Position numbers and translations under genes: made by a program. From contig NZ_CP087588.1 of NCBI RefSeq assembly GCF_020985305.1, forward strand, positions 3,285,501-3,349,500: a DNA stretch of 64,000 nucleotides, read 5' to 3'. Position 1 is the first letter of the stretch. Every line of letters begins with the position of its first letter. Shown in pieces: positions 34,043-62,435 of the stretch. Source of the stretch: Croceicoccus sp. Ery15 (GTDB lineage: Bacteria; Pseudomonadota; Alphaproteobacteria; Sphingomonadales; Sphingomonadaceae). The notes beneath the pieces were generated by a model. That model made no database searches. It was not told the origin of the DNA and was given only the letters and a program-made list of their open reading frames with translations.

Positions 34043-34143
34043 CCTATGCGCGGGCAGCTTTTGCCGCATGCGCGGAGCGGGGAAATGCGCCGGACGCACG
34101 CACCCTTGCGGGCACGTTCCATACATTGATCATGTTCGGAAAA

Positions 34144-34188
34144 TGGAGCGGGCGAAGGGATTCGAACCCTCGACCCCAACCTTGGCAA
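34144..34188 (-). other. Attachment site: 3' part of tRNA-Gly(GCC) at left end of the element
   Basis: Reading the minus strand, the sequence runs TTGCCAAGGTT (anticodon loop with GCC and 3' anticodon stem), then the T arm (GAGGG, TTCGAAT, CCCTT) and the acceptor strand CGCCCGC-T-CCA. Upstream of the anticodon loop the sequence no longer fits a tRNA: no matching 5' acceptor GCGGGCG or D arm is found. This is the duplicated 3' tRNA segment left by a tyrosine integrase that recombines in the anticodon loop. The intact tRNA-Gly should lie at the other end, right of the window. Confidence 0.8.
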
Positions 34189-34369: not shown

Positions 34370-35635
34370 ATGACCAAGCTGACCAAGAGGGCGATTGACG
34401 CCCTGCCCATCCCAGCGAAGGGACAGACCTTCCATTGGGATAGTGAAACGCGGGGTTTTGGTGTTCGCGTCGGCGCATCCGGCACGAAAACTTTCGTCGT
34501 CCAATACCGCAACGTCGAGGATCGAACGCGGCGAATGAAGCTCGGCCGCTATGGCATACTGACTGTCGAGCAGGCTCGCGATCAGGCCAAGATCAAGCTC
34601 GGCGAAGTCGCGGCCGGTGTTGATCCCGCCGAGGAAGTGGCGCAGTCTCGCCAAGACCCCACAGTGACCGAGCTGTGCGACTGGTATCTAGAAGAAGCGC
34701 GAGCCGGGCGCATACTGGGAAGGCGCAATCGGCCGATCAAGGTATCAACGCTCGACATGGATGAGAGCCGCATCAACACGCACATCAAGCCCCTACTCGG
34801 GCACCGTGTCGCCCGCCGCTTGAAGATCGCGGATGTCGAGGCGATGCAGGCGGATGTTATCGCGGGAAAGACAGCGAAGCCGCGTGCAGGCGGACGCGGC
34901 GGTGTCGCCACTGGCGGAGCAGGCGTTGCGCCGCGTGTAGTGGGCACTCTGCAAAGCGTTCTATCTCATGCAAAGCATAAGGGGCTGTTAGCAGAGCATC
35001 CTACGAAGGGCGCTCGCAAACTCGCGAGCAAGAAGAAGAAGCGCCGGCTTAGTATCGCCGAAATCGAAGATCTTGGCGCGGCGATGGTGGTGGCCGAACG
35101 TAATGGCGAGAACCCGGTTGGGATCGCCATCGTCAAGCTGCTGCTGCTGACGGGCTTCCGCCGTCAGGAAGGGCAAGCGATGTGGCGCTCCTGGCTGCGT
35201 GCCGAGGGCGGCTATGTGGCCTTCCCCGATACCAAGGGCGATGAACAGGCGCGGGCTATCGGACCGGCGGTAGTTAAGCTGATCCAAGAGCAGCCGGTGA
35301 TGGAAGGGAATCCGCACGTATTCCCTTCAGCGGAAACGACCGGTCCCATCACGACCGCGCCGACTTGTCTCGCCCGCTTGAGCGCCATCGCGAAGATCGA
35401 GGAAATTACGCCCCATACCCTGAGGCATACCTTCGGCAGCGTCGCGGGCGATCTCGGCTTTTCGGAGCTGACGATTGCCGCGATGCTTGGCCATGCCTCG
35501 CAGACAGTAACGCAAGGCTATGTGCATGTGGATGAGGCGTTGCGACTGGCTGTGAGCCGCACCTCCGCGGAAATCTCGAAAGTTTTGGAGCTTGGCGCCG
35601 AGCGCGCAGCATTGCGTCTCAGAGATGCTGCCTGA
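34370..35635 (+). CDS. int: Tyrosine-type site-specific integrase
   Basis: 421-residue recombinase with the DUF4102-type N-terminal arm-binding domain (LTKRAIDALPIPAKGQTFHWD...GFGVRV) and C-terminal catalytic domain: Arg in LTGFRRQEG, H-x-x-R in PHTLRHTFG, LGHAS and the nucleophile Tyr in VTQGYVHVD. An AT-rich stretch at about 34215-34265 precedes it and probably holds its promoter and arm sites. It lies 180 bp from the tRNA-Gly fragment and should catalyse integration and excision of the element. Confidence 0.93.
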   Translation: MTKLTKRAIDALPIPAKGQTFHWDSETRGFGVRVGASGTKTFVVQYRNVEDRTRRMKLGRYGILTVEQARDQAKIKLGEVAAGVDPAEEVAQSRQDPTVTELCDWYLEEARAGRILGRRNRPIKVSTLDMDESRINTHIKPLLGHRVARRLKIADVEAMQADVIAGKTAKPRAGGRGGVATGGAGVAPRVVGTLQSVLSHAKHKGLLAEHPTKGARKLASKKKKRRLSIAEIEDLGAAMVVAERNGENPVGIAIVKLLLLTGFRRQEGQAMWRSWLRAEGGYVAFPDTKGDEQARAIGPAVVKLIQEQPVMEGNPHVFPSAETTGPITTAPTCLARLSAIAKIEEITPHTLRHTFGSVAGDLGFSELTIAAMLGHASQTVTQGYVHVDEALRLAVSRTSAEISKVLELGAERAALRLRDAA

Positions 35636-36519: not shown

Positions 36520-36723
36520 ATGGTCTCAATCACAAAAACTCCGCTGCTGGAGCCGCTTACAAAAGCGGTGGCAGCCCTTTCCGTTTCCGGCCTGATTTCG
36601 GTCCTCGTCGCGGGTTTCACGGACGAATTTGCCCGAATCTGGGTGATCACTTTCCTGCTGGGCTGGCCGCTCGGCTCCCTCTTTGATCGGGCGGTCAGCC
36701 GTCTTGAAAGGGGGATGGCATGA
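36520..36723 (+). CDS. Small DUF2798-type membrane protein
   Basis: 67-residue protein with two membrane segments (about 14-32 and 40-57), resembling DUF2798 proteins: PLTKAVAALSVSGLISVLVA and FLLGWPLGSLFDRAV. The start at 36520 has a GGGGG ribosome-binding site upstream; the longer frame from 36382 adds a polar stretch with no support. It overlaps the RND adaptor gene by ATGA, so it is the first gene of the efflux operon. Its role is unknown. Confidence 0.65.
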   Translation: MVSITKTPLLEPLTKAVAALSVSGLISVLVAGFTDEFARIWVITFLLGWPLGSLFDRAVSRLERGMA

Positions 36724-37853
36724 GCGCCGCCGATCAGGAACTGCCGGAGCGCAGCCGTTTCGGGGGAAGCCAGACCCGGACCCTCATTGTCACCCTCGTG
36801 ATCCTGGCCGTCGTCCTGGGCGGGCTGTTCCTGTGGCGCACGATGCGCACCGGGCAGCAACAAGGCTGGCAGCAGCAGGCGACGTCCGTCGCCGCGACCG
36901 TCGTGACGCCGCAAGACGTGCCGGCCGCTCTGCAAGCGGTCGGGGGCTTGCGCGCGGTTCGGGAGGTGACGCTCTCGCCGGAGATCGCGGGGCGCGTGAC
37001 CGCCATCCGGTTCGAGGCCGGTTCGCAGGTCCGCAGCGGCGCCTTGCTGGTCCAGCTTTTCGATGGTCCCGAGACGGCCGATCGGCAGGCGGCCCAGGCC
37101 AGGGCCGCGTTCGCCCGCGTGCAGGTGTCCCGTTCCGAGGAGCTTGCGCCGACCGGCGCGGAGCCGCGCGAACTGCTCGAACAGCGCCGCGCGGAGCGGG
37201 ACCAGGCGGTCGCCGCCGTGCGCCAGCTCGACGCCCGGCTCATCCAGAAGCAGGTGCGCGCACCCTTCTCCGGCGAGATCGGCATTCGCCGCGTCAACCT
37301 CGGCCAGTTCCTCAATCCCGGCGATGCGATCGCCACGCTGACCGACCTCTCCAGCCTCTATGTCGAGTTCGCCCTGCCGCAGCAGGAGCTGGGACAGCTG
37401 CGGCGCGGATCGAGCGTCACCGTCACCAGCGACGCCTTCCCCGACCGGACCTTCACCGCGCGCGTCAACGCGATCGAGCCCCAGATCGGCCAGGACACCC
37501 GCAACGTCACGGTGCAGGCGGTCCTGCCCAACCCGGACCGGGCGCTACGGCCCGGCATGTATGTGACGGCCGCGCTCGAGTTGCCGCCGCAGACCGGCGC
37601 GCTGGTCGTGCCCGCGACCGCGATCCAGACCTCCGCGCAGGGCGACAGCGTGATCGTCATTCGCGGCAAGGATGCACGTAAGGCCGGCAAGGCCGAGATC
37701 GTGCCAGTGCACACCGGCCGCCGTATCGGCAACAGCGTCGTCATCGCCGGTGGCCTGAAGCCCGGTGACGTCGTCGTCACCGAAGGGCAACTGCGCGTGC
37801 AGCCGGGCGCCGAGGTCAAGGTCTCGCGCCTCGTGAAGACGGAGGAGCGCTGA
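36720..37853 (+). CDS. RND efflux periplasmic adaptor (membrane fusion protein)
   Basis: 377 residues: an N-terminal membrane anchor (about 21-42), then a biotinyl-lipoyl-like domain split by a helical hairpin (VTAIRFEAGSQVRSGALLVQ ... LIQKQVRAPFSGEIGIRRVN), then beta-barrel and membrane-proximal domains (LRPGMYVTAALELPPQ; GLKPGDVVVTEGQLRVQPG). It joins the pump to the outer-membrane channel. It overlaps DUF2798 by 4 bp and the pump starts 1 bp after it. Confidence 0.93.
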   Translation: MSAADQELPERSRFGGSQTRTLIVTLVILAVVLGGLFLWRTMRTGQQQGWQQQATSVAATVVTPQDVPAALQAVGGLRAVREVTLSPEIAGRVTAIRFEAGSQVRSGALLVQLFDGPETADRQAAQARAAFARVQVSRSEELAPTGAEPRELLEQRRAERDQAVAAVRQLDARLIQKQVRAPFSGEIGIRRVNLGQFLNPGDAIATLTDLSSLYVEFALPQQELGQLRRGSSVTVTSDAFPDRTFTARVNAIEPQIGQDTRNVTVQAVLPNPDRALRPGMYVTAALELPPQTGALVVPATAIQTSAQGDSVIVIRGKDARKAGKAEIVPVHTGRRIGNSVVIAGGLKPGDVVVTEGQLRVQPGAEVKVSRLVKTEER

Positions 37854-37854
37854 G

Positions 37855-40800
37855 ATGGCCTTCACCGACATCTTCATCCGCCGCCCGATCCTCGCGATCG
37901 TCGTCAGCCTGCTGATCCTGCTCGTGGGCGTCAGTGCGATGTTGAGCCTGCAGGTGCGCCAGTATCCGCGCATGGAAAGCGCGACGATCACCATCGACAC
38001 GGCGCTGCCCGGCGCGACGCAGGACGTCATGCAGGGGTTCGTCACCACGCCGATCGCACAGGCGATCGCGACCGCCAGCGGCATCGAGTATCTGACATCG
38101 ACCTCGACCCAGGGCACAAGCCGGATCAGCGCCAAGCTGGTACTCAATGCCGATGCCGACCGTTCGATGACCGAGATCCTCGCCAAGGTGCAGCAGGTCA
38201 AGTTCCGCCTGCCGGCCGGCGTCACCGATCCGGTAATCAACAAGATCACCGATGGCGCCTCGGCCATCCAGTATATCACCTTTACCAGCGAGACCGTGCC
38301 GGCGCCGCAGATGGTCGATTTTGCGACGCGCGTCGCTCAGCCGCTCATCACATCCGTTCCGGGCGTCGCGTCCGCGCAGATCAGCGGCGGTGCTCCGCTC
38401 GCGATGCGTATCTGGGTGGACCCGGTCAAGCTCACGGCGCGTGGCCTTTCGGCCAGCGATGTCGCCACCGCACTGCGGTCCAACAATGTGCAGGCGTCGC
38501 CGGGCCAGCTCAAGGGCGCCAACACCGCCATCAACATCACCGCCGGAACCGATCTGCGTGATGTCGAGGCGTTCCGCACGATGGTCATCAAGACCGGATC
38601 GGACGGAATCGTACGGCTCGGCGACATCGCGACCGTCGAGCTCGGCGGCCAGAACTACGACGCCTCCTTCATCACGTCCGGCAAGCCGGCTGTCGCGATC
38701 TCCATTTCCCCGACGCCGGACGGCAATCCGCTGGAGATCGTCGAGGCGGTGAGGACACTGCTTCCCGACATCCAGCGAGTTGCGCCGCCCGGTCTCGAAG
38801 TCACCAACACGTTCGACGTGGCGCATTTCGTGAACGCGTCGATCGAGGAGGTCCAGCGCACGCTGATCGAGGCGGTGATTATCGTGATCGTCGTCATCTT
38901 CCTGTTCCTGGGTAGCTTCCGCGCGGTCATCATCCCGATCGTCACCATTCCGCTGTCGCTGCTCGGCACGGCGGCGCTGATGCTGGCGTTCGGCTTTTCG
39001 TTCAACCTGCTGACCCTGCTCGCCATGGTTCTGGCGATCGGTCTCGTCGTCGACGATGCCATCGTGGTGGTGGAAAATATCCACCGGCATATCGAGGAAG
39101 GCTTGAAGCCCTTCGACGCGGCGCTTGTCGGCGCGCGCGAGATCGTCGGGCCGGTGATCGCGATGACGATCACGCTGGCGGCGGTCTATGCGCCGATCGG
39201 GCTGATGGGTGGGCTCACCGGCGCGCTGTTCCGCGAGTTCGCGTTCACGCTGGCCGGATCGGTCATCGTCTCGGGCGTCGTGGCGCTCACGCTGTCGCCG
39301 ATGATGAGCGGCAAACTGCTCCATGCCAAGCTGGGCGAAGGCAGGCTGTCCCAGGCGATCGAGCGCAACATGCACAGGCTAACGCAGGGTTATGCCCGAC
39401 TGCTTGACAAGACCTTGGCCGCACGCGGCGCCGTGCTGATCGTCGGCGTCGCCATGCTCGGTGCGATCGTGGTGCTGTTCAGCGGCTCCCAGCGCGAACT
39501 CGCGCCGCCGGAGGACATGGGCTATGTCTTCGTCCAGACGAAGGCGCCGCAATATGCCAATGTCGATTATACCTCACGCTTCAACGCCGAGGTCGATGGC
39601 ATCTTCCGCTCGCTGCCGGAGTTCGCAAGCAGCTGGTTCGGCACCGGCGGAGAGAACAATGCCAATGGCGGCTTCGGCGGTGTCGTGCTCAAGGAATGGG
39701 GCGATCGGACACGCAGCGCCGACGACATCCAGGGCGAGCTGACCGGACGCAGCGGCGCGGTCACCGGCGTCTATGCCACAACCTTCCAGGACAGTCCGCT
39801 GCCCGCCGGCAGTGGCGGGCTGCCCGTGCAGATGGTGATCCGGTCGGCGGATGATTATCCCGAGATCTTCCAGACGCTCGAAGCGATCAAGGGCGCGGCC
39901 TGGGGCAGCGGCCTGTTCGCCTTCGTCGACAGCGACCTCGCCTTCGACAGTCCCGAAGCGCATATCAGCATCGACCATGAAAAGGCAGGTCAGCTCGGCA
40001 TCTCCATGGCGGAGATCGCAGACACGCTGGCGACCCTGGTCGGCGAGAACTATGTCAACCGCTTCAACTGGCACGATCGTTCCTATGATGTGATCGCCCA
40101 GGTGCCGCAGGAGCAGCGGCTGACGCCCGACAATCTCGGCCAATTCTACGTCAAGGCATCCTCGGGCAGCCTCGTGCCGCTGTCCACGGTCGCCAGCGTG
40201 GAGATCCGTCCCCAACCCAACAGGTTGCCCCAGTTCAACCAGATGAACTCGGCGACGCTCTCGGCGGTGCTGTTGCCGGGCGTGACGATGGGCCAGGCGG
40301 TCGACTTCCTCAAGAGCCAGCCGCTGCCGGCCGGCACCACGGTCGACTGGCTGTCGAACAGCCGCCAATATGTGCAGGAAGGCAACCAACTCACCATCTC
40401 GTTCGGCTTCGCGCTCATCGTGATCTTCCTGGTGCTCGCGGCGCAGTTCGAGAGCTTCCGCGATCCGCTGGTGATCCTGGTGACGGTGCCGCTCGCCGTG
40501 TGCGGGGCGCTGGTGCCGCTCTATCTCGGCTTCACCACGCTCAACATCTACACCCAGATCGGCCTCATCACGCTGATCGGGCTGATCTCAAAGCACGGCA
40601 TCCTGATGGTCTCCTTCGCCAACCAGATGCAGCGGCAGGAGGGAGCAAACCGGATGGAGGCTATGCGGCACGCCGCCGCCGTGCGTATGCGGCCCGTGCT
40701 GATGACCACCGCCGCGATGGCGGCGGGCCTGGTGCCGCTGCTGTTCGCGGGCGGCGCGGGCGCCAACAGCCGGTTCGCCATCGGCATCGTCGTGGTCATG

Positions 40801-40935
40801 GGCCTCTTGATCGGCACCCTGTTCACCCTGTTCGTGCTGCCGACCATCTACACGCTGATCGCGGGCGACCACCGCCCCAAGGCGGATGCACAGAGCGACG
40901 AACTCCCGGCCGAAGGAGGTCTGGCCCATGCGTAA
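37855..40935 (+). CDS. RND multidrug efflux permease (HAE-1 type)
   Basis: Inner-membrane proton-driven pump of 1026 residues, the usual size for AcrB-like transporters. The N-terminus FTDIFIRRPILAIVVSLLIL is typical; the proton-relay pair is D400-D401 in GLVVDDAIVVVENI, and the second half contains QFESFRDPLVILVTVPLAVC and GIVVVMGLLIGTLFTLFVLP. It probably exports drugs or toxic organics; the substrate range cannot be read from sequence. It overlaps the channel gene by 8 bp. As cargo of a conjugative element, it could transfer tolerance between strains. Confidence 0.94.
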   Translation: MAFTDIFIRRPILAIVVSLLILLVGVSAMLSLQVRQYPRMESATITIDTALPGATQDVMQGFVTTPIAQAIATASGIEYLTSTSTQGTSRISAKLVLNADADRSMTEILAKVQQVKFRLPAGVTDPVINKITDGASAIQYITFTSETVPAPQMVDFATRVAQPLITSVPGVASAQISGGAPLAMRIWVDPVKLTARGLSASDVATALRSNNVQASPGQLKGANTAINITAGTDLRDVEAFRTMVIKTGSDGIVRLGDIATVELGGQNYDASFITSGKPAVAISISPTPDGNPLEIVEAVRTLLPDIQRVAPPGLEVTNTFDVAHFVNASIEEVQRTLIEAVIIVIVVIFLFLGSFRAVIIPIVTIPLSLLGTAALMLAFGFSFNLLTLLAMVLAIGLVVDDAIVVVENIHRHIEEGLKPFDAALVGAREIVGPVIAMTITLAAVYAPIGLMGGLTGALFREFAFTLAGSVIVSGVVALTLSPMMSGKLLHAKLGEGRLSQAIERNMHRLTQGYARLLDKTLAARGAVLIVGVAMLGAIVVLFSGSQRELAPPEDMGYVFVQTKAPQYANVDYTSRFNAEVDGIFRSLPEFASSWFGTGGENNANGGFGGVVLKEWGDRTRSADDIQGELTGRSGAVTGVYATTFQDSPLPAGSGGLPVQMVIRSADDYPEIFQTLEAIKGAAWGSGLFAFVDSDLAFDSPEAHISIDHEKAGQLGISMAEIADTLATLVGENYVNRFNWHDRSYDVIAQVPQEQRLTPDNLGQFYVKASSGSLVPLSTVASVEIRPQPNRLPQFNQMNSATLSAVLLPGVTMGQAVDFLKSQPLPAGTTVDWLSNSRQYVQEGNQLTISFGFALIVIFLVLAAQFESFRDPLVILVTVPLAVCGALVPLYLGFTTLNIYTQIGLITLIGLISKHGILMVSFANQMQRQEGANRMEAMRHAAAVRMRPVLMTTAAMAAGLVPLLFAGGAGANSRFAIGIVVVMGLLIGTLFTLFVLPTIYTLIAGDHRPKADAQSDELPAEGGLAHA

Positions 40936-42388
40936 ATCGAGACTCTCGCTCCTGCTCTTGCCGCTGCTCGCTTCGGCGTGCGCGGCCGGCCCTGCCTATA
41001 AAAGTCCGCTCAGCCCCCCGGCGGCGGCAGGGCCGTTCGTTACGGAGGCGGCCGGATTTGATCGCGCCGCCGAACTACCGGATGACTGGTGGCGGCTCTA
41101 CCGCGATCCGGCGCTCGACGAGTTGGTGGCCAAGGCGCTGGCCGCCAACACCGATCTTCGCGTCGCCTCCGCCAATCTCGCAAGAGCCCGCGCGGTCCTG
41201 TCGGAAGCACGCGCCGGACGGCTTCCGTCCACCGACATCTCCGGCGGCGTCAGCTATGGCGACGGCGTCCAGGGCGCTGCCGGCCAGGGTGGCGGGCAAG
41301 GCGGAACGCCCGTCGGCGGCGATGCGCAATGGTCCCAGAATGCAGGCGTTGCCCTGTCCTGGGAAGTCGACCTGTTCGGGCGGGTGGGCCGCGCGATCGA
41401 AGCGGCGCGCGCCGACACGCAGGCCGTCGAGGCCGCGCGCGACGCCGTGCGCGTGACGGTGGTCGCGGAGACGACACGGGCCTATCTCGACGCTTGCGCC
41501 TCGGCCTATGCGCTGTCGGTGGCGCGGGAGTCGTTCGAGACCAGCAACCAGAGCCTGCGGCTCGTCACCGCGCAGGAGCGGGCCGGATCGGTCGGCAAGC
41601 TCGATGTCGAGCGCGCCGGTGCGGCCGCCGCAACCGCGCGCGCCGCGATCCCCGCGCTTGAAGGCCAGCGGCAGATCGTCCTGTTCGAGCTGGCGGCGCT
41701 GCTCGGCACCACGCCTGACCAGGTGCCGGAAGCCGCGCGCGCCTGCGCGGTGGCGCCCGAGCCGCTTGCCGCCATCCCAGTCGGCGATGGCGCGGCGCTG
41801 CTGCGCCGCCGGCCCGACCTTCGCGAAGCCGAGCGGACGCTCGCGGCCGACACAGCGCGGATCGGCGTGGCGACGGCCGATCTCTATCCCAGGATCAGCC
41901 TGGGCGGCTCCGGCAATTTCTTCCGCAACGATTTCGTGCGCGGGGGCGACAGCTTCTCCTTCTCGCTCGGGCCGCTCCTGTCATGGAGCTTCCCCAATAT
42001 GTCGGTAGCGCGCGCGCGGCTGCGCCAGGCCGAGGCCCAGGGCGACGCCTCGCTCGCAGCGTTCGACGGCCGCGTGCTGACCGCGCTCAAGGAGGTCGAG
42101 CAGGCGCTGACCAGCGTCGCGACCGAACAGGAGCGGCTCGACGCCCTGCGCGAGGCGCAGGAGCGGTCGGAGCGTGCCTATCGCTTCGCCGATCTGCGTT
42201 ATCGCGCCGGCTCGGTCGGCTATCTCGACGTGCTGGTGGCGCAGGCCGACCTGCTCAACGCGCGGACCGCTTACGCCACTTCCGTTCGCCAGCTCGCTTC
42301 GGTGCGGGTCGACCTGTTCAAGGCATTGGGCGGCGGGTGGCGCGACGTGCCTGTGACGGCCGACGCCAGCGGCGCGAGCCGGAACTGA
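40928..42388 (+). CDS. RND efflux outer-membrane channel lipoprotein (OprM/NodT type)
   Basis: 486 residues from the ATG at 40928. A lipoprotein signal (LSLLLLPLLASAC, Cys18) precedes two OEP repeats: DWWRLYRDPALDELVAKALA, ANLARARAVLSEARAGRLPS and the second repeat IGVATADLYPRISLGGSG through LRYRAGSVGYLDVLVAQADL. It forms the TolC-like exit duct of the pump. It is the last gene of the efflux operon and is followed by a weak terminator-like hairpin. Confidence 0.92.
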   Translation: MRKSRLSLLLLPLLASACAAGPAYKSPLSPPAAAGPFVTEAAGFDRAAELPDDWWRLYRDPALDELVAKALAANTDLRVASANLARARAVLSEARAGRLPSTDISGGVSYGDGVQGAAGQGGGQGGTPVGGDAQWSQNAGVALSWEVDLFGRVGRAIEAARADTQAVEAARDAVRVTVVAETTRAYLDACASAYALSVARESFETSNQSLRLVTAQERAGSVGKLDVERAGAAAATARAAIPALEGQRQIVLFELAALLGTTPDQVPEAARACAVAPEPLAAIPVGDGAALLRRRPDLREAERTLAADTARIGVATADLYPRISLGGSGNFFRNDFVRGGDSFSFSLGPLLSWSFPNMSVARARLRQAEAQGDASLAAFDGRVLTALKEVEQALTSVATEQERLDALREAQERSERAYRFADLRYRAGSVGYLDVLVAQADLLNARTAYATSVRQLASVRVDLFKALGGGWRDVPVTADASGASRN

Positions 42389-43408: not shown

Positions 43409-44356
43409 TTGATTGAACTGCGACATCTTCGTTACTTAGTAGCGGCCGCCGAAGCTGGAAGTTTCAGCCGGGCTGCACGCGCACTAAATATCAAACAAGC
43501 AACGCTCAGCCGGCATATTCTAAATGTAGAGAAGCGGCTCGGTTTAGCGCTATTCGACCGAAGGACGCGCGGCGCCACACTTACGCGAGACGGCGAGACG
43601 TATCTTCGCACCGCGCAACGGATCGTGGACGAGTGGGAAGAACTGAACGCCTGGGTGCGTTCGACGCGCAATGGAGAGGCCGGCAGGCTGGGGGTGGGCT
43701 TCTATACCTCCTTTGCGGCCGAGAACCTGCGCGCCTCCCTGAGCGAGTTTGGCGAACGTCATCCCGAGGTGAAGCTGTGCGGGTTCGAGCGCGACCGCAA
43801 AATGCTGCTGGCCGGGATCGAAAACCGGGTGCTCGATATCGCGATTATGGTTGGCGAGTCGCCTTGTCCAGGGCTGCTTAACCGATCATTCTGGAGCGAG
43901 CGGATGATGGTGGCTATGCCGGAAGACCATCGCCTTGCAGCCTGTGAAAAGATTCACTGGGCCGACCTCATCGGTGAACGCTTTCTGCTGACGCAGCGAG
44001 ATCCCGGTCCAGAAAGCTGTAACATGATCTTTAGTAAGCTCGGGATGCCAGGCTACTCGCCTGAGATCGACATGGAGGACATCGGGCGCGATACTGTCCT
44101 AAGTATTATCGCGCTCGGTATGCATATTTCGATTGTCGAGGAATCTACTCTCGGCATCCATGTCCCCGGCGTGGTCTTCCGCGAGGTTCACGAGACCAAC
44201 GGCCACGCGCGGATCGGCTTTTCCGGCTATTGGCGCGAAGACAATGAGAATGCGGTGCTGCGCCGGTTTCTTAAGTTCGTCACCGCCCGCTATTCGATGC
44301 CGTCTGTGCCTGTGCCGCAACCATCGTCTCAGCAAACGGGAAAGGAGCCGTCATGA
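43409..44356 (+). CDS. LysR-family transcriptional regulator
   Basis: 315 residues, TTG start. The helix-turn-helix is FSRAARALNIKQATLSRHIL (about 19-38), followed by a linker helix and a periplasmic-binding-like effector domain. LysR regulators (traR) occur in Tn4371-like elements. It is convergent with the trb operon and its stop overlaps the start of an exclusion-like small gene (ATGA). It may control the efflux/stress genes, transfer, or both. The DNA here is less GC-rich than the trb genes. Confidence 0.82.
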   Translation: MIELRHLRYLVAAAEAGSFSRAARALNIKQATLSRHILNVEKRLGLALFDRRTRGATLTRDGETYLRTAQRIVDEWEELNAWVRSTRNGEAGRLGVGFYTSFAAENLRASLSEFGERHPEVKLCGFERDRKMLLAGIENRVLDIAIMVGESPCPGLLNRSFWSERMMVAMPEDHRLAACEKIHWADLIGERFLLTQRDPGPESCNMIFSKLGMPGYSPEIDMEDIGRDTVLSIIALGMHISIVEESTLGIHVPGVVFREVHETNGHARIGFSGYWREDNENAVLRRFLKFVTARYSMPSVPVPQPSSQQTGKEPS

Positions 44357-54403: not shown

Positions 54404-54823
54404 TCATTCTTCTTGAGGCGGCAAGTCCTCACTGATTTCCTGTCTGACCTTCGGCCCCTTCGCGAGTCGGCGGCCGAGCGCATCCATGAAGGCATCGTAG
54501 CGGTCGCCGCCCTGCCGACGCATCGCGGCGCGCTCGCTCTCGGGTGGCGGCGGGGTGTTCGACAGCCAGAAGCGGACAAACATCGCGACCATCTCGACGC
54601 CGATCCCCGTGTCGCGCTCCAGCCGGGTCAAGCGCCGGTCCAGCTTGTCGAGCCGCTTGGCGATGGCGGCCTCGCGCTGCTCGTCGGCATCGGGCGACAG
54701 GAAGGATGCGATAGCGGCCTCGGCGATCAGCGAACGCGATTGCCCGCGCCGATCGGCATAGGCTTCAAGCGCGTCCTTGAGGTCGGGATCGAGATAGACC
54801 GACAGGGGGGATTTCGTGGTCAT
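54404..54823 (-). CDS. CopG/ribbon-helix-helix transcriptional regulator
   Basis: 139 residues. The N-terminal ribbon-helix-helix signature is [20 protein letters not shown] followed by [17 protein letters not shown] (about residues 3-44), then a helical tail. It overlaps traG by ATGA and precedes trbB. Such regulators sit at this place in many Tn4371-like elements. The repeated CTACGCT motif before traG and trbB is a candidate binding site. Confidence 0.82.
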
Positions 54824-56850
54824 AGCTCGATGCCGTCGTCGGGATCGAGCGACGCCTGGCGGGCCACGCGCTGCATCTGGCGGCGCACCGCCGCCTGCCG
54901 CGTCGCGTCGCTATCGGGATCGGGCTCGTCCAGCTCGAACTCGTTGGCGGGCGCTGGCCGGGGCGTCGGCGCAATGTCGATATGGTGCTCCAGCGCCGGC
55001 TCGCGGCGCAGGTCCGCATTGTCGGCATCGTCCTCGGCATCCGCCTTCCTGGCGGCCTTTTTCTTCTTGGGCTTCTTCGGCGCTCCATGCTCGATCGGTT
55101 CGGGCATCGGCGGCGCCTCGATCGGCGCCAGGCCGCTCCAGTCGTCGGGGCGCGGCGGGCCGCCTCCGACATTGCTATCGGGCGGCGACATCACCCGCTG
55201 CGTGAACCGCCGGTCCTTGAAGTAGCGGACCTTCTTCGCCCGGATCGGCGGGATGCCGGCGACCATGACGATCTCATCGTCGGGCGGGAGCTGCATGATC
55301 TCTCCGGGGGTGAGAAGCTGGCGGGCGGTCTCGGAGCGCGACACCATCAGATGGCCGAGCCAGGGTGAGAGGCGATGCCCGGCGTAATTCTTCATCGCCC
55401 GCATCTCGGTCGCGGTGCCGAGCGCGTCCGATATGCGCTTGGCGGTGCGCTCGTCGTTGGTGGCGAACGACACGCGCACATGGCAATTGTCGAGGATCGC
55501 GTTGTTCGGCCCATAAGCTTTCTCGATCTGATTGAGGCTTTGGGCGATGAGGAAGCTCTGGATGCCGTATCCGGCCATGAACGCCAGCGCGCTCTCGAAG
55601 AAGTCGAGCCGGCCGAGCGCGGGAAACTCGTCGAGCATCAACAGCAGCCGGTGGCGCGACCGCCGCGCCTTCAAGTCCTCGGTCAGCCGGCGCCCGATCT
55701 GGTTGAGGATGAGGCGGATGAGCGGCTTGGTGCGCGAGATGTCGCTGGGCGGCACGACGAGGTAGAGCGTCACCGGCAGCTCGCCCTCGACCAGATCCTT
55801 GATGCGCCACTCGCAGGTGCGCGTGACCTGCGCGACGACGGGATCGCGATAGAGACCGAGGAACGACATGGCGGTCGAGAGCACGCCCGATCGTTCGTTG
55901 GCCGATTTGTTGAGCAGCTCGCGCGCGGCCGAGGCGACGACGGGATGGACGCCCGCCTCGCCCAGGTGCGGCGTCGTCATCATCGCCCATAGCGTGCTTT
56001 CGATCGGGCGGCGGGGATCGGACAGGAAGGCGGCGACGCCGGCCAGCGTCTTGTCGGCCTCGGCGTAGAGCACATGGAGGATCGTGCCGACCAGCAAGGC
56101 ATGTGAGGTCTTTTCCCAATGGTTGCGCTTCTCCAGCGAACCTTCCGGGTCCACCAGCACGTCGGCGACGTTCTGCACGTCGCGCACTTCCCAGGCGCCC
56201 TTGCGGATTTCAAGAAGGGGGTTGTAGGCGGCCGACGCGCCATTGGTCGGATCGAACAGCAGCACCCGCGCGTGCTGGGCGCGGAAGCCGGCGGTGAGCT
56301 GCCAGTTCTCGCCCTTGATGTCATGGACAATGGCCGAGCCGGGCCAAGTGAGCAGCGTCGGCACCACCAGCCCCACGCCCTTGCCCGATCGCGTCGGCGC
56401 GAAGCACAGCACATGCTCGGGACCATCGTGGCGCAGATAGTCGCGCCCGAGCCGACCGAGCATGACGCCGCTGTCGCCCAGCAGCCCGGCGGCGCGCACT
56501 TCGTTGCGCCCTGCCCAGCGCGCCGAGCCATAAGTCTCAGCGTTCTTCAGCTCGCGCGCGCGCCAGACCGACATGCCGATGGCGACGACGATCGCGGCGA
56601 ACCCGCCCGACACGGCGATGAACGCGCCGGTCTGGAATATCTCCGGCGCATAGGCGTCGAAAGAAAACCACCACCAGAAGAAGGCCGGCGGCGGATAGAC
56701 CGGCCAGTCGCCGAGCATGAACCACGGCGCCCCAAGCTCGGGCTGATAGGCGAGCGCCGCGGCCGTCCATTGCGTCGCGGCCCATATGGTGCTGAGCACG
56801 ATCAGGAAGACCGTGAATACCTGACCCCAGAGGATTTTGGTTGCCGACAT
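54820..56850 (-). CDS. traG: Type IV coupling protein TraG (VirD4-like)
   Basis: 676 residues. Two N-terminal membrane segments (about 10-35 and 72-95), then the coupling ATPase: Walker A APTRSGKG (151-158), HDIKGENWQLTAGFR, and Walker B region RLLLMLDEFPALG. It brings the relaxase-DNA complex to the trb channel. The C-terminal ~120 residues are rich in charged and Pro residues and are disordered-like. Its start lies 46 bp after a TATAAT box. Confidence 0.95.
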   Translation of the reverse strand: MSATKILWGQVFTVFLIVLSTIWAATQWTAAALAYQPELGAPWFMLGDWPVYPPPAFFWWWFSFDAYAPEIFQTGAFIAVSGGFAAIVVAIGMSVWRARELKNAETYGSARWAGRNEVRAAGLLGDSGVMLGRLGRDYLRHDGPEHVLCFAPTRSGKGVGLVVPTLLTWPGSAIVHDIKGENWQLTAGFRAQHARVLLFDPTNGASAAYNPLLEIRKGAWEVRDVQNVADVLVDPEGSLEKRNHWEKTSHALLVGTILHVLYAEADKTLAGVAAFLSDPRRPIESTLWAMMTTPHLGEAGVHPVVASAARELLNKSANERSGVLSTAMSFLGLYRDPVVAQVTRTCEWRIKDLVEGELPVTLYLVVPPSDISRTKPLIRLILNQIGRRLTEDLKARRSRHRLLLMLDEFPALGRLDFFESALAFMAGYGIQSFLIAQSLNQIEKAYGPNNAILDNCHVRVSFATNDERTAKRISDALGTATEMRAMKNYAGHRLSPWLGHLMVSRSETARQLLTPGEIMQLPPDDEIVMVAGIPPIRAKKVRYFKDRRFTQRVMSPPDSNVGGGPPRPDDWSGLAPIEAPPMPEPIEHGAPKKPKKKKAARKADAEDDADNADLRREPALEHHIDIAPTPRPAPANEFELDEPDPDSDATRQAAVRRQMQRVARQASLDPDDGIEL

Positions 56851-56895
56851 GGCATCGAAGTCGATGCGTGCCGGACATCAAATCAAGCCGCTGTT

Positions 56896-56939
56896 ATTAT
56901 AGGGGAAAGTCTAGCGTAGAAATACAGGGAATAGCGTAG
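56896..56939 (-). promoter_or_regulatory. traG promoter with two operator-like repeats
   Basis: On the minus strand a perfect -10 box TATAAT lies at 56901-56896. CTACGCTA occurs at 56919-56912 and 56939-56932, exactly 20 bp apart and on the same strand; the inner copy overlaps the -35 area. Tandem sites two helical turns apart are typical for ribbon-helix-helix regulators. Confidence 0.55.
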
Positions 56940-56990
56940 TTACGCCCATGACTGGCTGTCTAGCATCTGCTACCGAAGGGCAAAGGCTGA

Positions 56991-59681
56991 TCAAATCCCG
57001 TATATCTTGCCTCGCCGCGTGAAGGCTGCCTTTGCTCCTTCGAGGATGCTGCAGGTGATATCCCGCGTCTGCTCATGGTCTATCGAGCCGCGTGACGTAA
57101 TGACCGCTTGCTCACTGTTCGCGCCGAGCACGACGATCTGCTCGGCGTCGCCTAGAACGGCAATGTTCGGATTGTGCGTTACGATGATGATCTGGCGTCG
57201 CTCCTTCGCCAATCGGATGACAGGGACGAGCTGTGAGTAAATGAACTGTCCATCGAGATTGTCTTCCGGCTGGTCGATCAAAAGCGGGTTCGGATTTTCC
57301 GAAGATAGCATTAAGGCTAACAGGACGGATTGCTGTTGCCCGAGAGAGAGTTGGGCGAACTCACGCGTGCGATAGTGCTTCTGACCGCTCCCATCTGTGA
57401 CCTCGCGCGTGACAGTGAGATAGGGCCGGTCAAACACCTGCATCGTTTCCAAGCGCGCAAGCGTTTTGGGTTCGCTGAAACGCTCGATGAGAGTGTTTGC
57501 CTCCTGTGTGTTGAAATACGACGCGCCCTCGTCACTAACGAGCGATGCAATTGCCAAAGGGTCTTTCGCCCTGATGGCGGCGAGGAGTTTCGGGACGGTG
57601 AGGTGGCGTTCGATCACCGAAGCGCGGGGCACCTGATTGGTCCGCCACCCCATGATCTCGATCAGCAGGTCTCGTGCCTGCGGCGAATGGGCGTTCTCCT
57701 CGAACTTCAGAGAGACATTCAGATCTGACAGCGCGCTGCGAAGTTTCACCGTGGCCGATGCCGCAAATGCCCGTCGTTTTTGATAAGTTGCAGCACGCGC
57801 TGACCAGCGCTTTACGGCAACCTCATCGCGCTCTTTGATCTTCTCCGACAGACGGGGTTCCCACGTTTTCAGGTTTGTCACCGATGTTTGGTGTGTAGCT
57901 TCATCTCGTGTGAGCTGCGCAATGTAGGTGGTGTTCACGGTGATGCCTTGGGCTTCCAAGGCGCTCTTTTGGGAATCCACAGTCGCGAGCAGGGTCGTCT
58001 CTTTCTTCGACCACTCCTCGACCTTGGTGGTGACAACTTGGCTGAGTGCCTGCGATCCCGCTTTGAGATCGCCTTCCGACACTGACAGGTTGCTCTCGAA
58101 GTCATCGGCCTTCGTTTTGATCGCGGCGAATTCGTCCTTCCCGAGAACCAGCTTGCTCTCGTCGGCCGCTGCCTTGAGCAGACCGAGCGACGTCTTTACC
58201 GCTTCGTAGTTCAAATTTTTGGCGATGGCGCGCGCATGTTCCATTACGCTACGCCTAGATTGACGCTCGGATTCTATCTGCTGATAGGTTTCGATCAGAC
58301 CCTTTGCGTTTCCATCCGTAAACTTCTTGATCTGCTGCTTAGTGATGCTCAATTCACGCTCATATTGGGGAATGAGGGCAACCTTCCCGCGTGCTTCGTC
58401 GATAGCGATTTCCAACTCGGCGATCTCTGCGCGGATGCGCTCTTCTTCTACCGTCTCGCTGAGCACGTTGGTGAAGCGGTCAAGGTAACGCAGTAAAGCG
58501 CCCGGGTCTGCCTGAGCCTGCTCGCTAATTTTCTGCGTTTCGCCCTGGCCGTAGCACTCCACCGGGATGGTATCCGGGCCATCAAACGGATCGTTGATAT
58601 TGGTTCCGCAATCGTCACCCTTGCTCCAGCAAAGTCGGTGAGCAGCTCCGGCTCCATCGACAAATTGTATATCAATACGTTCCGGCCAAACGTCCGAGTT
58701 GACGACCGAAGCGCCACTGGGCGTCTTTGAAAACGCCCGGACGCCTTCGAACATCGTCGACTTCCCTGTGCCACGGCCGCCGATGATACACGTCAGGTTA
58801 GAGCTGAAATGAATCGCTTGATCCTTCAAAAATCCGCCCTTGAACCGGATGCCGGTGACGGTCGGCACGCTCTTGGGCAACTCGTCTTCAAGCCGCACCC
58901 GCGAATCCCCTTCGGTCATCGCGTGACGCACGGATTCGAAGGTGAGCGATTGCATTTTGTATCGCGTCACCTTGTTGTCGCCTGCGGCATTGCGGCCAAG
59001 CGCCTGCAAGGTGTGAGAATCGGAGTTCAGGACACGCGCGAGCGTTGGCAACGTGCCATCGTGAAGCTCGCTTCTCGTTTTGCCCAAGCCTTTGCGCACG
59101 TTGTCGGGGTCATTGACGCTGTAGGATATGGACGACCCCGCATTCTTCAGTTCGATGCCGAGCAAGGCAGGGTGGTTGATGATGTCGGCCTTGTATGGCG
59201 GAGCCCCTGGCACTTCGACTTCCAATCCCTTCGGTCCGTCCACATGCGCGAGCACGCCGAAACCGCCCAAGACGTGCATCTTCGTGAGGCAGTCCACCAT
59301 CGGGTTGTCGACGCGCGACGTGGGCAGGCCCAAGTCGCGGACAGTCAATTGCGAATAAAATGCACTAAGTGATTGCAGGGACGGCAGATAGCAAAGCAGA
59401 TGACCCTGCATCGTGCTGAGTTCGACCGCAGGAACGACGAGCAGGTTATCAAGCGCCGCAGCCGTAATGGCTGGTGCGACATTGTTGATGGCGTTGTGAT
59501 CAGCGATTGCGATTACCGACAGGCCGTGAGCAATCGCTGTCTGCACGATGTTTGTTGGAGTGGCAGTTATGTCTGTTACGTCGTGTGATCCACCATAACT
59601 GTGAATGTGAAGGTCGCCGCGCACAAAACGCGCACCGTTCGTCAGCGCGATTACATCCGCAAAATCATCACTATCGACCAT
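56991..59681 (-). CDS. PHP-domain / SMC-like ATPase fusion (TrlF-like), cargo
   Basis: 896 residues. Residues about 20-260 form a PHP phosphoesterase domain with all metal ligands visible: H25/H27 in DLHIHS, D61/H62 in IADHN, E87, H94, H146 and D221/H223 in NSDSH. A Walker A, GGRGTGKS, follows at 301-308, then a long helical coiled region (about 405-690), and the C-terminal ATPase half with signature LSLGQQQ (778-784), Walker B LLIDQPED (about 802-809) and switch His in VTHN. This layout resembles proteins named TrlF, thought to act in defence or DNA maintenance. It lies between relaxase and traG, divergent from an unknown gene, in less GC-rich DNA. Function is inferred. Confidence 0.75.
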   Translation of the reverse strand: MVDSDDFADVIALTNGARFVRGDLHIHSYGGSHDVTDITATPTNIVQTAIAHGLSVIAIADHNAINNVAPAITAAALDNLLVVPAVELSTMQGHLLCYLPSLQSLSAFYSQLTVRDLGLPTSRVDNPMVDCLTKMHVLGGFGVLAHVDGPKGLEVEVPGAPPYKADIINHPALLGIELKNAGSSISYSVNDPDNVRKGLGKTRSELHDGTLPTLARVLNSDSHTLQALGRNAAGDNKVTRYKMQSLTFESVRHAMTEGDSRVRLEDELPKSVPTVTGIRFKGGFLKDQAIHFSSNLTCIIGGRGTGKSTMFEGVRAFSKTPSGASVVNSDVWPERIDIQFVDGAGAAHRLCWSKGDDCGTNINDPFDGPDTIPVECYGQGETQKISEQAQADPGALLRYLDRFTNVLSETVEEERIRAEIAELEIAIDEARGKVALIPQYERELSITKQQIKKFTDGNAKGLIETYQQIESERQSRRSVMEHARAIAKNLNYEAVKTSLGLLKAAADESKLVLGKDEFAAIKTKADDFESNLSVSEGDLKAGSQALSQVVTTKVEEWSKKETTLLATVDSQKSALEAQGITVNTTYIAQLTRDEATHQTSVTNLKTWEPRLSEKIKERDEVAVKRWSARAATYQKRRAFAASATVKLRSALSDLNVSLKFEENAHSPQARDLLIEIMGWRTNQVPRASVIERHLTVPKLLAAIRAKDPLAIASLVSDEGASYFNTQEANTLIERFSEPKTLARLETMQVFDRPYLTVTREVTDGSGQKHYRTREFAQLSLGQQQSVLLALMLSSENPNPLLIDQPEDNLDGQFIYSQLVPVIRLAKERRQIIIVTHNPNIAVLGDAEQIVVLGANSEQAVITSRGSIDHEQTRDITCSILEGAKAAFTRRGKIYGI

Positions 59682-59826
59682 CGAGAGCCTCCCCCTTCGG
59701 TGAGGCTATCACAATCCAGCGACATGAGAACGCGGTGTTTTATTTCATGTTGGTGCGGTCGACACCCGGCGCCCCCGTAAGGCGACGGTGCTTGCGCCCT
59801 CCCGGACTCACAGGCATTCTTGTCGC

Positions 59827-60483
59827 ATGTATCCTCAAACTAATCCGGAGAAGGCAGCTCTTTACTTCAAAGCCGTGGACGAAATTCGTGCGCGGCTTCG
59901 ATGCGTGGACGACCTGTTGACCGGCAACATGGCACCGTTGCTTATACACGAGTTTTGCCAGTTGCAGCTCCGTCTCGCCGCCGAGTGTCTGGCGATCGCG
60001 TGCCTGGCCGCGCAGGGCGACTTCGAAACGCACAAAGCGTTTCGTGACAGGTATGAGCCGGGCGCTATCTTCAGGGCGCTGGAAGCACTGTATCCCGCAT
60101 TCTTTCCGACGCCCTCTATCATGCAACGTGTCGGCGAAGGCCGGTGGCATTTCGACGGCGACGGGCACGGCAATACGATCACGCGCGCGGATATCGAAGA
60201 AATCTGGAACTTGTCCGGGGCGCATTTGCATCGTGGATCGGCGAAGCGATACCTGACGGACGCCCAAGACATTGACCTGCTGGCAGTAGCACGCCTCAAA
60301 GAAAGATTCTGGAATCTGCTAATGGACCACCTGATCGTTCTCGCTGACCAACAATCCCGATTTCACGTCCATGTCGAGCGGAACACCGACGACATTCAAT
60401 GTCATTTTCTGTTTCTCGACAGGGAGGCAGGGACCGCTAGGGTCGAACCCTACAATGCGATCGTCGGTGAGCGCGCTATTTGA
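59827..60483 (+). CDS. Unknown protein divergent from the PHP/ATPase gene
   Basis: 218 residues; no family recognised. The first half is helical and rich in Leu/Ala (LLIHEFCQLQLRLAAECLAI), then an acidic patch (HFDGDGHGNTITRADIEEIW), and the C-terminal part contains FHVHVERNTDDIQCHFLF and ends YNAIVGERAI. No signal peptide or membrane segment. The start is ATG at 59827; the track-like extension to 59788 has no support. It shares a 145-bp divergent intergenic region with the PHP/ATPase gene and converges with the relaxase (64 bp apart). Possible partner or regulator of the cargo gene. Confidence 0.6.
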   Translation: MYPQTNPEKAALYFKAVDEIRARLRCVDDLLTGNMAPLLIHEFCQLQLRLAAECLAIACLAAQGDFETHKAFRDRYEPGAIFRALEALYPAFFPTPSIMQRVGEGRWHFDGDGHGNTITRADIEEIWNLSGAHLHRGSAKRYLTDAQDIDLLAVARLKERFWNLLMDHLIVLADQQSRFHVHVERNTDDIQCHFLFLDREAGTARVEPYNAIVGERAI

Positions 60484-60547
60484 TCGACGGCTTTCGCAAA
60501 ATCCAGTTGCCGAACTAACCAGCCCGCTAGCTACTCAATCCCTTCAA

Positions 60548-62278
60548 CTAAAGCCCCAGCCCTCGTCCTCTCCCAAATGACCAATCGACGCCGCCATTGG
60601 TCCGCATGACGCCCGAGATATGTTTGCCGATCTGGCGGTCGAGCGACGGGGACCAGGGCACGAGCTGGAAGCTCAACCCGTTGTCGATCATGGCGAAGCG
60701 GCCCGAGGCGAGCGTGACGCGCTGGCGCGCCGTGCCCGCGACATATTCCCCGGCCTTGGACGGCGCGTGCGGCAGGCCAATTTCGGCCGACAAGTCCTTG
60801 GTGGCCACGTCGAGTTCGCGCCGCCGCAGCGTGTCGAGCAGGTTGCGTGCGAAGATGATGCGCTGGCCCTGCCGCCGCGCCAGCCCTTCATCGGCCAGAT
60901 GCTCGGCGCGGGCCTCCATCGCGGCGCGCACCTCGGTCCCGAAGCCGCCGCCGAGGTCGCGGCCGTCGCTCGACAAGTTGCGGCGGTCGAGCCAGGTGGC
61001 GCCCGGCGCGTGGACCTGCGCGGACAAGTCCGCGTCCGACCGGACGGCGAGCGCCACCCGCTGCCGGCCCTTGCGGTCCTCGAAATGGCGCAGCTCGACG
61101 ATCGCGCCCGGCTTGCAATCGCCGGTCGCCTCGATGTCGGAAAAGCGGATGTGGTGGGTGCGCCCGTCGATGCCGTCCACGATCGCATAGGCTTTGCCGG
61201 TCAGCTCGTCATGCAAGCCGCGATCGACCAGCCTGCCGATAACGGGCTGGGCCGGATCGGCGTCGAGGACATAGCTGCCGGCGCCCCGGTCGATGCCGCG
61301 GTCGCTCATCGCCTTGTGCATCCGCTTGATGATGTCGCCGCGCTCGCCCAGCTCCCGCAGCGCCGCCTGGGCGCCGCCAGCCAGCGTCCACTTGCCGGGC
61401 GCGATCTCGCTGGCGAGGCCGAGGCGCTCCAGCTTGCGCAGCCGCCCCATCCTCAGCACATGGTCGCCATCCGGCCGCACGCCGGGCTCAGGCGCCATGT
61501 CGATCAGCCCGTCGCGCTGCATGGCGCGGGAAAGGTCGCGGTCGATCTCGGTCCAGCGTTCGGCCTCGACCTGCCGCTCCAGCGACTGCCGGATTTCAAG
61601 GTCGGTGCGCAGGCCGAGTTCCTGGGTGACTATCTCGCGCGCAGTCGCCCGCATCCCTTCGCGGATATAGTCGCGCGAAATAACGAGGTTCTGCCCGTCC
61701 TCGGCGACGCCCCGCACGATGATGTGGACATGGGGGTTGTCGGTGTTCCAGTGCTCGACCGCGCGCCAGTCCAGGCGGGTGCCGAGATCCTTTTCCATTC
61801 GCGTCATCAGTTCGCGGGTGAAGCCCTTGAGGTCGCGCATCTGCTCGGCGTCCTCGGGCGAGACGATGAAGCGAAAATGATGGCGGTCGTCCTCACAGCG
61901 CGCCGCAAACTCGTTGCGGTCGAGGCCGTCCGCCTCGGCGCCGAACAGCACGCCCCGCTCGCCGTCGCGGGTGACGCCATCGCGTTGCAGATAGTTGAGA
62001 TGGGCGGCGAGCGAGGCGCGGCCGCCATGCCGGACCACGCGCGCCTTGACGACGACCTGGCGCGATCGGTGGCCGAGCCGGTGGGTGGCGCGCACGCTCG
62101 CCACGCGGCCCCGCCCGAAGGTCGAGCGCCCCGGCGCGACGATGCGGCCACGGCGCGAAACATGACCGCCCGCACGCTGGGCGGCGGCAAGCGCCTGGGC
62201 AATGATCGGGAGCGCGCGCTGGCTTCCCCGCGAGCGGATACGCCCTGGCCGGACACGGAAATCATCGTCACGGCTCAT
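60548..62278 (-). CDS. traI: Relaxase/mobilisation nuclease with DUF3363 domain (VirD2/TraI-type)
   Basis: 576 residues from the ATG at 62278. The relaxase core has Y96 in AAHLNYLQRDG as candidate nucleophile and the metal site H183-x-H185 in NPHVHIIVRG; the remaining ~390 residues are the DUF3363 region. It nicks at oriT and pilots the strand to TraG. Four CGCACATTGC repeats lie just upstream. The longer frame to 62380 reads through them. The gene is separated from traG by the PHP/ATPase cargo. Confidence 0.88.
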   Translation of the reverse strand: MSRDDDFRVRPGRIRSRGSQRALPIIAQALAAAQRAGGHVSRRGRIVAPGRSTFGRGRVASVRATHRLGHRSRQVVVKARVVRHGGRASLAAHLNYLQRDGVTRDGERGVLFGAEADGLDRNEFAARCEDDRHHFRFIVSPEDAEQMRDLKGFTRELMTRMEKDLGTRLDWRAVEHWNTDNPHVHIIVRGVAEDGQNLVISRDYIREGMRATAREIVTQELGLRTDLEIRQSLERQVEAERWTEIDRDLSRAMQRDGLIDMAPEPGVRPDGDHVLRMGRLRKLERLGLASEIAPGKWTLAGGAQAALRELGERGDIIKRMHKAMSDRGIDRGAGSYVLDADPAQPVIGRLVDRGLHDELTGKAYAIVDGIDGRTHHIRFSDIEATGDCKPGAIVELRHFEDRKGRQRVALAVRSDADLSAQVHAPGATWLDRRNLSSDGRDLGGGFGTEVRAAMEARAEHLADEGLARRQGQRIIFARNLLDTLRRRELDVATKDLSAEIGLPHAPSKAGEYVAGTARQRVTLASGRFAMIDNGLSFQLVPWSPSLDRQIGKHISGVMRTNGGVDWSFGRGRGLGL

Positions 62279-62288
62279 GACGCGGAAC

Positions 62289-62435
62289 GCCGCAATGTGC
62301 GGCAAACCCTGCTGTCTGCTGGTTTTCGGCTCTCGCCGCACATTGCGCGGTTTCCGCGCACATTGCGCAGCAATGACCAAAAGCCTTGAGAATCAAGGCC
62401 ACAACCGAGGCGCAGGGGCTCCGCACATTGCCGCC
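62289..62435. repeat. Four CGCACATTGC repeats upstream of the relaxase, candidate oriT
   Basis: CGCACATTGC occurs at 62337-62346, 62357-62366 and 62422-62431 on the plus strand and once in opposite orientation (62292-62301). The first is also part of the palindrome-like GCCGCAATGTGCGGC at 62289-62303. The two central copies start exactly 20 bp apart. The short stretch directly before the relaxase gene is the usual place for oriT or a relaxase/auxiliary-protein site. Confidence 0.5.
62383..62399 (-). terminator. Short hairpin between transglycosylase and relaxase genes
   Basis: GCCTTGA and TCAAGGC form a perfect 7-bp stem with a three-base loop; on the minus strand it is followed by TTTT. It may end transcription of the upstream lytic transglycosylase gene or be the oriT hairpin of the nearby repeat cluster. 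Confidence 0.4.

Follow-up and report, generated by a model that had tools for sequence, protein, structure and literature searches.

Two divergent genes, trlF and a HEPN-like candidate, in the relaxase-traG cargo site of an integrative and conjugative element of Croceicoccus sp. Ery15

What are two divergently transcribed genes, one encoding a large PHP/ATPase protein and the other a small orphan, doing between the relaxase and traG genes of a conjugative element? The locus lies in a 64,000-nucleotide stretch of the Croceicoccus sp. Ery15 genome (contig NZ_CP087588.1, positions 3,285,501 to 3,349,500), hereafter the window. The first gene, trlF (56991..59681, minus strand), encodes 896 residues; the second, which we call gene 2 (59827..60483, plus strand), encodes 218 residues, and 145 bp (59682..59826) separate the two start codons. 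We give a probability of roughly 0.6 to the reading that they are two independent defence-type genes, TrlF being a one-chain analogue of Mre11-Rad50 and the gene 2 product a HEPN-like protein, lodged in the relaxase-traG site of an IncP-like integrative and conjugative element (ICE) inserted in a tRNA-Gly gene. The TrlF family, its architecture and this kind of cargo site are already known, while the apparent defence use of the site in an alpha-type gene order, the model-based likening of TrlF to Endonuclease Q joined to Rad50 and the predicted HEPN-like nature of gene 2 are new and await experiment. An initial annotation, made from the letters alone, had placed both open reading frames (ORFs), the shared 145-bp region and the position between relaxase and traG as we find them.

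By its sequence, the 896-residue protein is a member of the TrlF family, with a PHP domain followed by a split ATPase. It scores 454.6 bits against the NCBIfam profile NF045780 (TrlF_fam_ATP, cut-off 350, profile positions 1-944 of 944 covered), bearing out the likeness to TrlF-named proteins that had been pointed out before. Its nearest homologs among those listed are 67-85% identical to it. In an alignment of the window protein with 44 of the 120 homologs listed (45 sequences, 49-85% identical), the nine PHP ligands (H25, H27, D61, H62, E87, H94, H146, D221 and H223) are identical in 45/45 sequences. Likewise invariant are K307 of Walker A, Q379, the ABC signature LSLGQQQSV, D803, E806 and H836, and the claim that an intact PHP site and a complete ABC-type ATPase share one chain thus holds. 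The alignment places Walker A (GGRGTGKST, residues 301-309) at 58755..58781, the signature (residues 778-786) at 57324..57350 and the Walker B core (residues 800-806) at 57264..57284, all on the minus strand; some positions near these motifs are less constant (L801 kept in 0.42 of the 45 sequences, G811 in 0.67 and Y377 in 0.80). Structure prediction, a check proposed with the initial annotation, returned a model in which residues 18-267 resemble Endonuclease Q and residues 272-885 resemble the heads of SMC, Rad50 and RecF, whereas comparison with the sequences of solved structures reported ABC and PHP fragments and no more.

The anti-phage protein Ppl (NF042955; Ppl in PADLOC), a 3'-5' single-stranded DNA exonuclease inhibited by nucleoside triphosphates, likewise carries a PHP domain and an SMC-like ATPase in one chain of similar length with intact sites. 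However, NF042955 (cut-off 1000) gives the window protein 146.4 bits and the PADLOC model 95.4 bits (best stretch, residues 775-890), and membership in Ppl was rejected on score. Compared with Mre11-Rad50 and SbcCD, the nuclease part of TrlF is PHP/EndoQ-like instead of Mre11-like and is fused to the ATPase in the same chain. Endonuclease Q is not known to have an ATPase head, and TrlF differs from it in this respect. Our searches of the open-licence literature found no tested function for the TrlF family and no paper that treats TrlF as a defence protein. We infer for TrlF a nuclease activity, a trigger and a defence phenotype, and for gene 2 an activity of its own, along the following lines. 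As a one-chain analogue of Mre11-Rad50, TrlF would pair with a second chain through its Rad50/SMC-like head in an ATP-dependent manner; the head would bind DNA ends, forks or single strands arising in phage or plasmid invasion and gate the metal-dependent PHP nuclease, which would degrade or nick the bound DNA, while gene 2 would act on its own as a HEPN-like accessory protein. A further-reaching proposal, speculative and in its entirety improbable, makes TrlF a distinct class of single-chain "EndoQ-Rad50" defence nuclease, the head scanning invading DNA and the PHP site attacking ends and deaminated or otherwise unusual bases in the DNA of phages and plasmids; gene 2 would then be a second, RNA-level defence factor of an undescribed family, and both would be spread by phages and alphaproteobacterial ICEs.

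The PHP domain might instead be a nucleotide phosphatase or an RNA exonuclease, TrlF then halting growth through nucleotide drain or RNA decay rather than by cutting invader DNA. The sequence matches in this direction are weak, namely the nucleoside bisphosphatase profile NF041577 (28.6 bits), the amidohydrolase 2yb1 (E 0.033) and the 5'-3' exoribonuclease 7ug9 (25.2 bits), and we hold this alternative to be unlikely.

Gene 2 starts at the ATG at 59827, an alternative GTG at 59788 giving 231 residues. It is not a chance ORF, since 41 database relatives, itself included, are among the matches listed, the closest of them 70-87% identical. The initial annotation had called it unrecognised, which stands for the Pfam, NCBIfam and PADLOC scans; to this we add a match with phrog_13799, a PHROG of unknown function (E 8.3e-9), which all 33 aligned relatives also match at E<=5 (best 4.3e-15). 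Comparison with the sequences of solved structures returned nothing credible, Pfam gave no match of weight, and the protein matched nothing in the plasmid collection or in the phage records, nor did the DNA of 59600-60560 match the plasmid collection. The predicted fold is helical and HEPN-like with extra C-terminal strands, and the alignment of 33 sequences displays an invariant E in helix 2 and an invariant H135 at the end of helix 3. In these features gene 2 would resemble HEPN proteins such as HepT, AF0298 and AbiV, from which it differs by the additional C-terminal strands and by an unconserved Rx4-6H motif, position 129, six before H135, being R in 7/33 sequences and K in 7/33. HEPN families that keep the H and lack the R are described in the portion of PMC3710099 available to us. 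According to the predicted fold, gene 2 most likely encodes a HEPN-like accessory protein that works on its own and is perhaps an RNase or an RNA-binding abortive-infection factor, and an orphan gene of 218 residues thereby becomes a HEPN-like candidate.

Do the two genes belong together? The mobile two-gene module suggested in the initial annotation would be a single system in which TrlF is sensor and nuclease and the HEPN-like protein a second effector or regulator, with the 145-bp divergent promoter region shared. The genes are adjacent, divergent and equally low in third-position G+C, both are present in two genera, and in another locus (L102) the same site is filled by a DUF4145 protein alongside an SMC-like ATPase; the part of PMC3710099 at hand assigns DUF4145 to HEPN. 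Against this, searches with a gene-2 profile and a TrlF profile over six-frame translations report gene 2 in 0/13 trlF loci (TrlF >=700 bits, flanks of 3.4 kb or more on either side; L015-L019, L022, L134-L138, L199 and L201) and TrlF in 0/9 gene-2 loci (71-360 bits, flanks of 3.5 kb or more on either side; L004, L023-L026, L028 and L131-L133). The 13 trlF loci do not amount to 13 independent cases, because some prophages among them are closely related. The more distant trlF loci L195-L198 and L200 are also devoid of gene 2, and phage-like contigs carry gene 2 but no trlF. The count covers neither the short-flank loci L127, L129, L130 and L196 nor a gene-2 match in genome G061 that has four stops (E 4.7e-4) and was not recovered by the later profile. 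The longest contigs of the 41 gene-2 and the 120 TrlF homologs listed include none equal in size, a very weak test that misses the known pair. Among the loci compared, both genes stand together only in the ICE of the window, in its two hosts of two genera. With 0/13 and 0/9, the module is unsupported and was not kept as the default reading; we consider a joint system improbable and prefer two independent genes.

The genes that bound the insert are a RlxS-like relaxase (60548..62380) and a traG/virD4 coupling protein (54820..56850), both on the minus strand and forming the left and right edges of the cargo site, respectively. The relaxase exceeds the Pfam cut-offs for DUF3363 (305.4 vs 28.4 bits) and Relaxase (30.6 vs 24.6) and remains under that of NF041267 (RlxS; 584.3 bits, cut-off 850), whereas traG scores 1225.5 bits with PRK13876 (cut-off 674). 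A relaxase search reported 90 places in 65/298 genomes of the host family, of which 88 were fetched with their downstream DNA besides the window and G033, the genome that holds a second copy of the ICE. In 84 of these 88 loci traG was matched too (the others being L089, L096, L111 and L114), on the same strand as the relaxase in 84/84. The 84 junctions comprise 57 gaps of at most 261 bp and 27 inserts of 698-9082 bp; the interval is hence not constant among relatives, and alternative cargos exist. Among the closest relatives (relaxase 91-92% and traG 95-97% identical), five are empty and two are loaded, L033 with an FTR1 permease/cytochrome and other genes and L109 with a 334-residue protein that has no assigned family. 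In the window, as in L033 and L109, the ~90 bp that precede traG are 15-20/20 identical to the best of the five empty sites, beyond which the identity falls to 5-9/20; on the relaxase side, similarity to the empty sites ends at the relaxase stop codon, as judged by eye. This comparison indicates that one and the same segment was exchanged for different cargos, the traG leader being left intact. The whole insert of the window accordingly spans 56943..60547, reaching from the stop codon of the relaxase gene to the approximate start of the conserved leader, its right edge being good to a few bases. No recombinase gene was seen in the insert, and our guess is that cargo arrives by homologous recombination in the conserved flanks.

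A hotspot limited to relaxase-traG was rejected, since the traG-trbB interval is equally variable, exceeding its median by more than 600 bp in 24/64 loci as against 27/84 for relaxase-traG and 0/57 for trbB-trbE (trbB and trbE identified by eye). For Tn4371-like ICEs, the portions of PMC2789088 and PMC11448139 that we could consult describe a stretch behind the relaxase that varies, the latter paper naming it "accessory region 3"; place and principle are those of the window's site, but that region was described for beta and gamma elements, whereas here 27/84 junctions are loaded, defence genes included, in an alpha type judged by gene order. The consulted text of PMC11448139 states that alpha types are without cargo and traR at the corresponding locations, and nonetheless a figure legend there assigns a colour to traI-traG cargo. 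The loaded sites, alpha-type as judged by gene order, bear on this statement.

Of the 27 loaded loci, 12 contributed 18 ORFs to a PADLOC run and 14 contributed 20 ORFs to a Pfam run; for six more, the L085 toxin-antitoxin was the sole comparison, and L047, L072, L079 and L097 stood outside all cargo searches. Three cargos are clear defence systems: IetA and IetS (486.5 and 974.7 bits) in L036, a CBASS cyclase, E2 and phospholipase (499.9, 181.6 and 377.6 bits) in L038, and AbiLi (248.5 bits; AbiLii weak, 32.9 bits) in L064. The L102 pair (SMC-like ATPase, LmuB 77.8 bits, with the DUF4145 protein) makes a weaker case. A RES/Xre toxin-antitoxin occupies eight loci, which are not independent because they are 79-100% alike; PIN proteins occur in two loci, and the remaining scanned cargos are metabolic or without a match. 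ICEs of the alphaproteobacterial family to which the window belongs thus also appear to carry cargo, defence genes included, in the relaxase-traG interval, which becomes a place to seek new systems, several inserts having no known family. Inserts without a confident family are those of L037 (5253-10400), L109 (1591-2595), L039 (1927-3383) and L054 (13890-14525, by Pfam only), among them a protein of 1715 residues with a STAND-NTPase match under the Pfam cut-off; we list these four as candidates for new systems.

Alternatively, the cargo might act for the benefit of its own ICE, with competing plasmids and ICEs, not phages, as the targets of exclusion or destruction. Its location inside the transfer region, the recurrence of toxin-antitoxin cargo at the site and a second element seemingly in tandem at the same tRNA-Gly would suit such a role, but relatives of TrlF reside in P2-like phages, for which hotspots of antiviral genes are described in the part of PMC9122126 available to us, and we rate this alternative as rather improbable. 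The words PHP, Ppl and TrlF are absent from the main text of that paper. Five IMG/VR contigs (L134-L138), all P2-like, encode full-length TrlF proteins 32-37% identical to that of the window. In L135 and L136, trlF is flanked by a gpS-like tail-completion gene and a baseplate gene, and in L134, L137 and L138 by gpA-like and gpQ-like genes (PHROG scans for L134, L135 and L137; L136 and L138 by likeness), the latter being also its position in the Yersinia phage vB_YenM_42.18. In L199, a TrlF 61% identical to that of the window is encoded downstream of a gpP-like ORF named by eye.

On plasmids, trlF adjoins brxL in Polaromonas and lies two genes from pglX in Paraburkholderia; no BREX gene was listed within 8 kb of trlF on the Sphingomonas and Cupriavidus plasmids, and the record of an Azospirillum match is unannotated. 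The presence of TrlF in P2-like phages and near BREX genes fits an anti-phage cargo (cf. the consulted part of PMC9122126), and the anti-phage or anti-plasmid role put forward in the initial annotation is plausible from context. Its location in an ICE, on plasmids and in P2-like phages, three kinds of mobile DNA, ties TrlF to defence, with a proposed mechanism that is testable. Across genomes, NF045780 exceeds its cut-off in 8/98 and in 0/14 controls; protein searches gave 3/298 and 2/385, low estimates because at most two or three candidates per genome were scored. A TrlF-like gene is also annotated as two ORFs in a Vibrio phage (Vinavirales, PQ189346; L202 1343-3959), and in L197 (7995-15705) the neighbours of a distant TrlF-like protein are large ORFs that by eye are helicase- and DNA methyltransferase-like.

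The name TrlF comes from the temperature restriction locus of Photorhabdus (trlR-trlF-trlG, trlR being a small regulator; PMC7554251, seen in part), the setting of which differs, the window's trlF standing in an ICE cargo site beside gene 2, relaxase and traG. That TrlF is a stress or temperature-restriction protein with no defence role, as its name might suggest, is very improbable, given that no trlF mutations arose in the Photorhabdus study, which in the portion consulted leaves the role of trlF open, and that no TrlG-like (AlbA_2/HATPase) gene adjoins the trlF of the window.

By its anatomy, as read from gene content, the host element is an IncP-like ICE of ~44 kb integrated in tRNA-Gly; relaxase, traG, trb genes and tRNA-Gly repeats surround the two genes, in agreement with their earlier description as cargo of a conjugative element. 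An end repeat of ~51 bp lies in tRNA-Gly(gcc) at 34138..34188 and recurs at window-equivalent 78216-78267, beyond the end of the window. Adjoining this tRNA-Gly end, 34370..35635 (plus strand) encodes a tyrosine recombinase-like protein, the probable integrase (best NCBIfam match 41.4 bits, below cut-off). TrbF and TrbG were identified by scan, and trbB, trbE and trbL by eye. The relaxase-traG-trb order, with a LysR gene (43409-44356) in reverse orientation downstream of the trb genes, is the arrangement given for alpha-type Tn4371-related ICEs in the accessible part of PMC11448139. The copy in G033, a genome of another genus of the same family, is near-identical from 34138 on (99.4% across 36.5 kb and 99.9% across another 7.6 kb), and this near-identity across two genera suggests a recent transfer of the ICE.

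The insert is less GC-rich than its surroundings, as had been remarked: three 1-kb bins from 57001 to 60000 have a G+C of 0.56-0.57, two edge-straddling bins 0.645 and 0.622, and three bins further out on each side 0.67-0.71. Third-position G+C is 0.669 in trlF and 0.653 in gene 2 vs 0.844-0.873 in relaxase, traG, trbE and trbL. The 145-bp region between the start codons returned no sigma-70-like site, and the promoter and terminator scan of 56800-60700 was uninformative (two promoter-like and four terminator-like sites vs 2.1 and 4.2 expected). The conserved traG leader (56851..56942, minus strand), kept in empty and loaded close relatives, contains two TACGCTA copies with a 20-bp period; the pair lies just upstream of a TATAAT box and is possibly an operator of the transfer genes.

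Elsewhere in the ICE, 36720-42388 encodes a resistance-nodulation-division (RND) efflux set of adaptor, permease and outer-membrane protein, and ARAGORN reports, in both host genomes, an unusual tRNA whose anticodon has four bases (cggc) at window-equivalent 65463-65544, outside the window. Between the right repeat of the ICE and another tRNA-Gly lies a second segment of ~20 kb (window-equivalent 78267-98047; G000 3363767-3383547), as if another element had integrated in tandem at the same tRNA-Gly.

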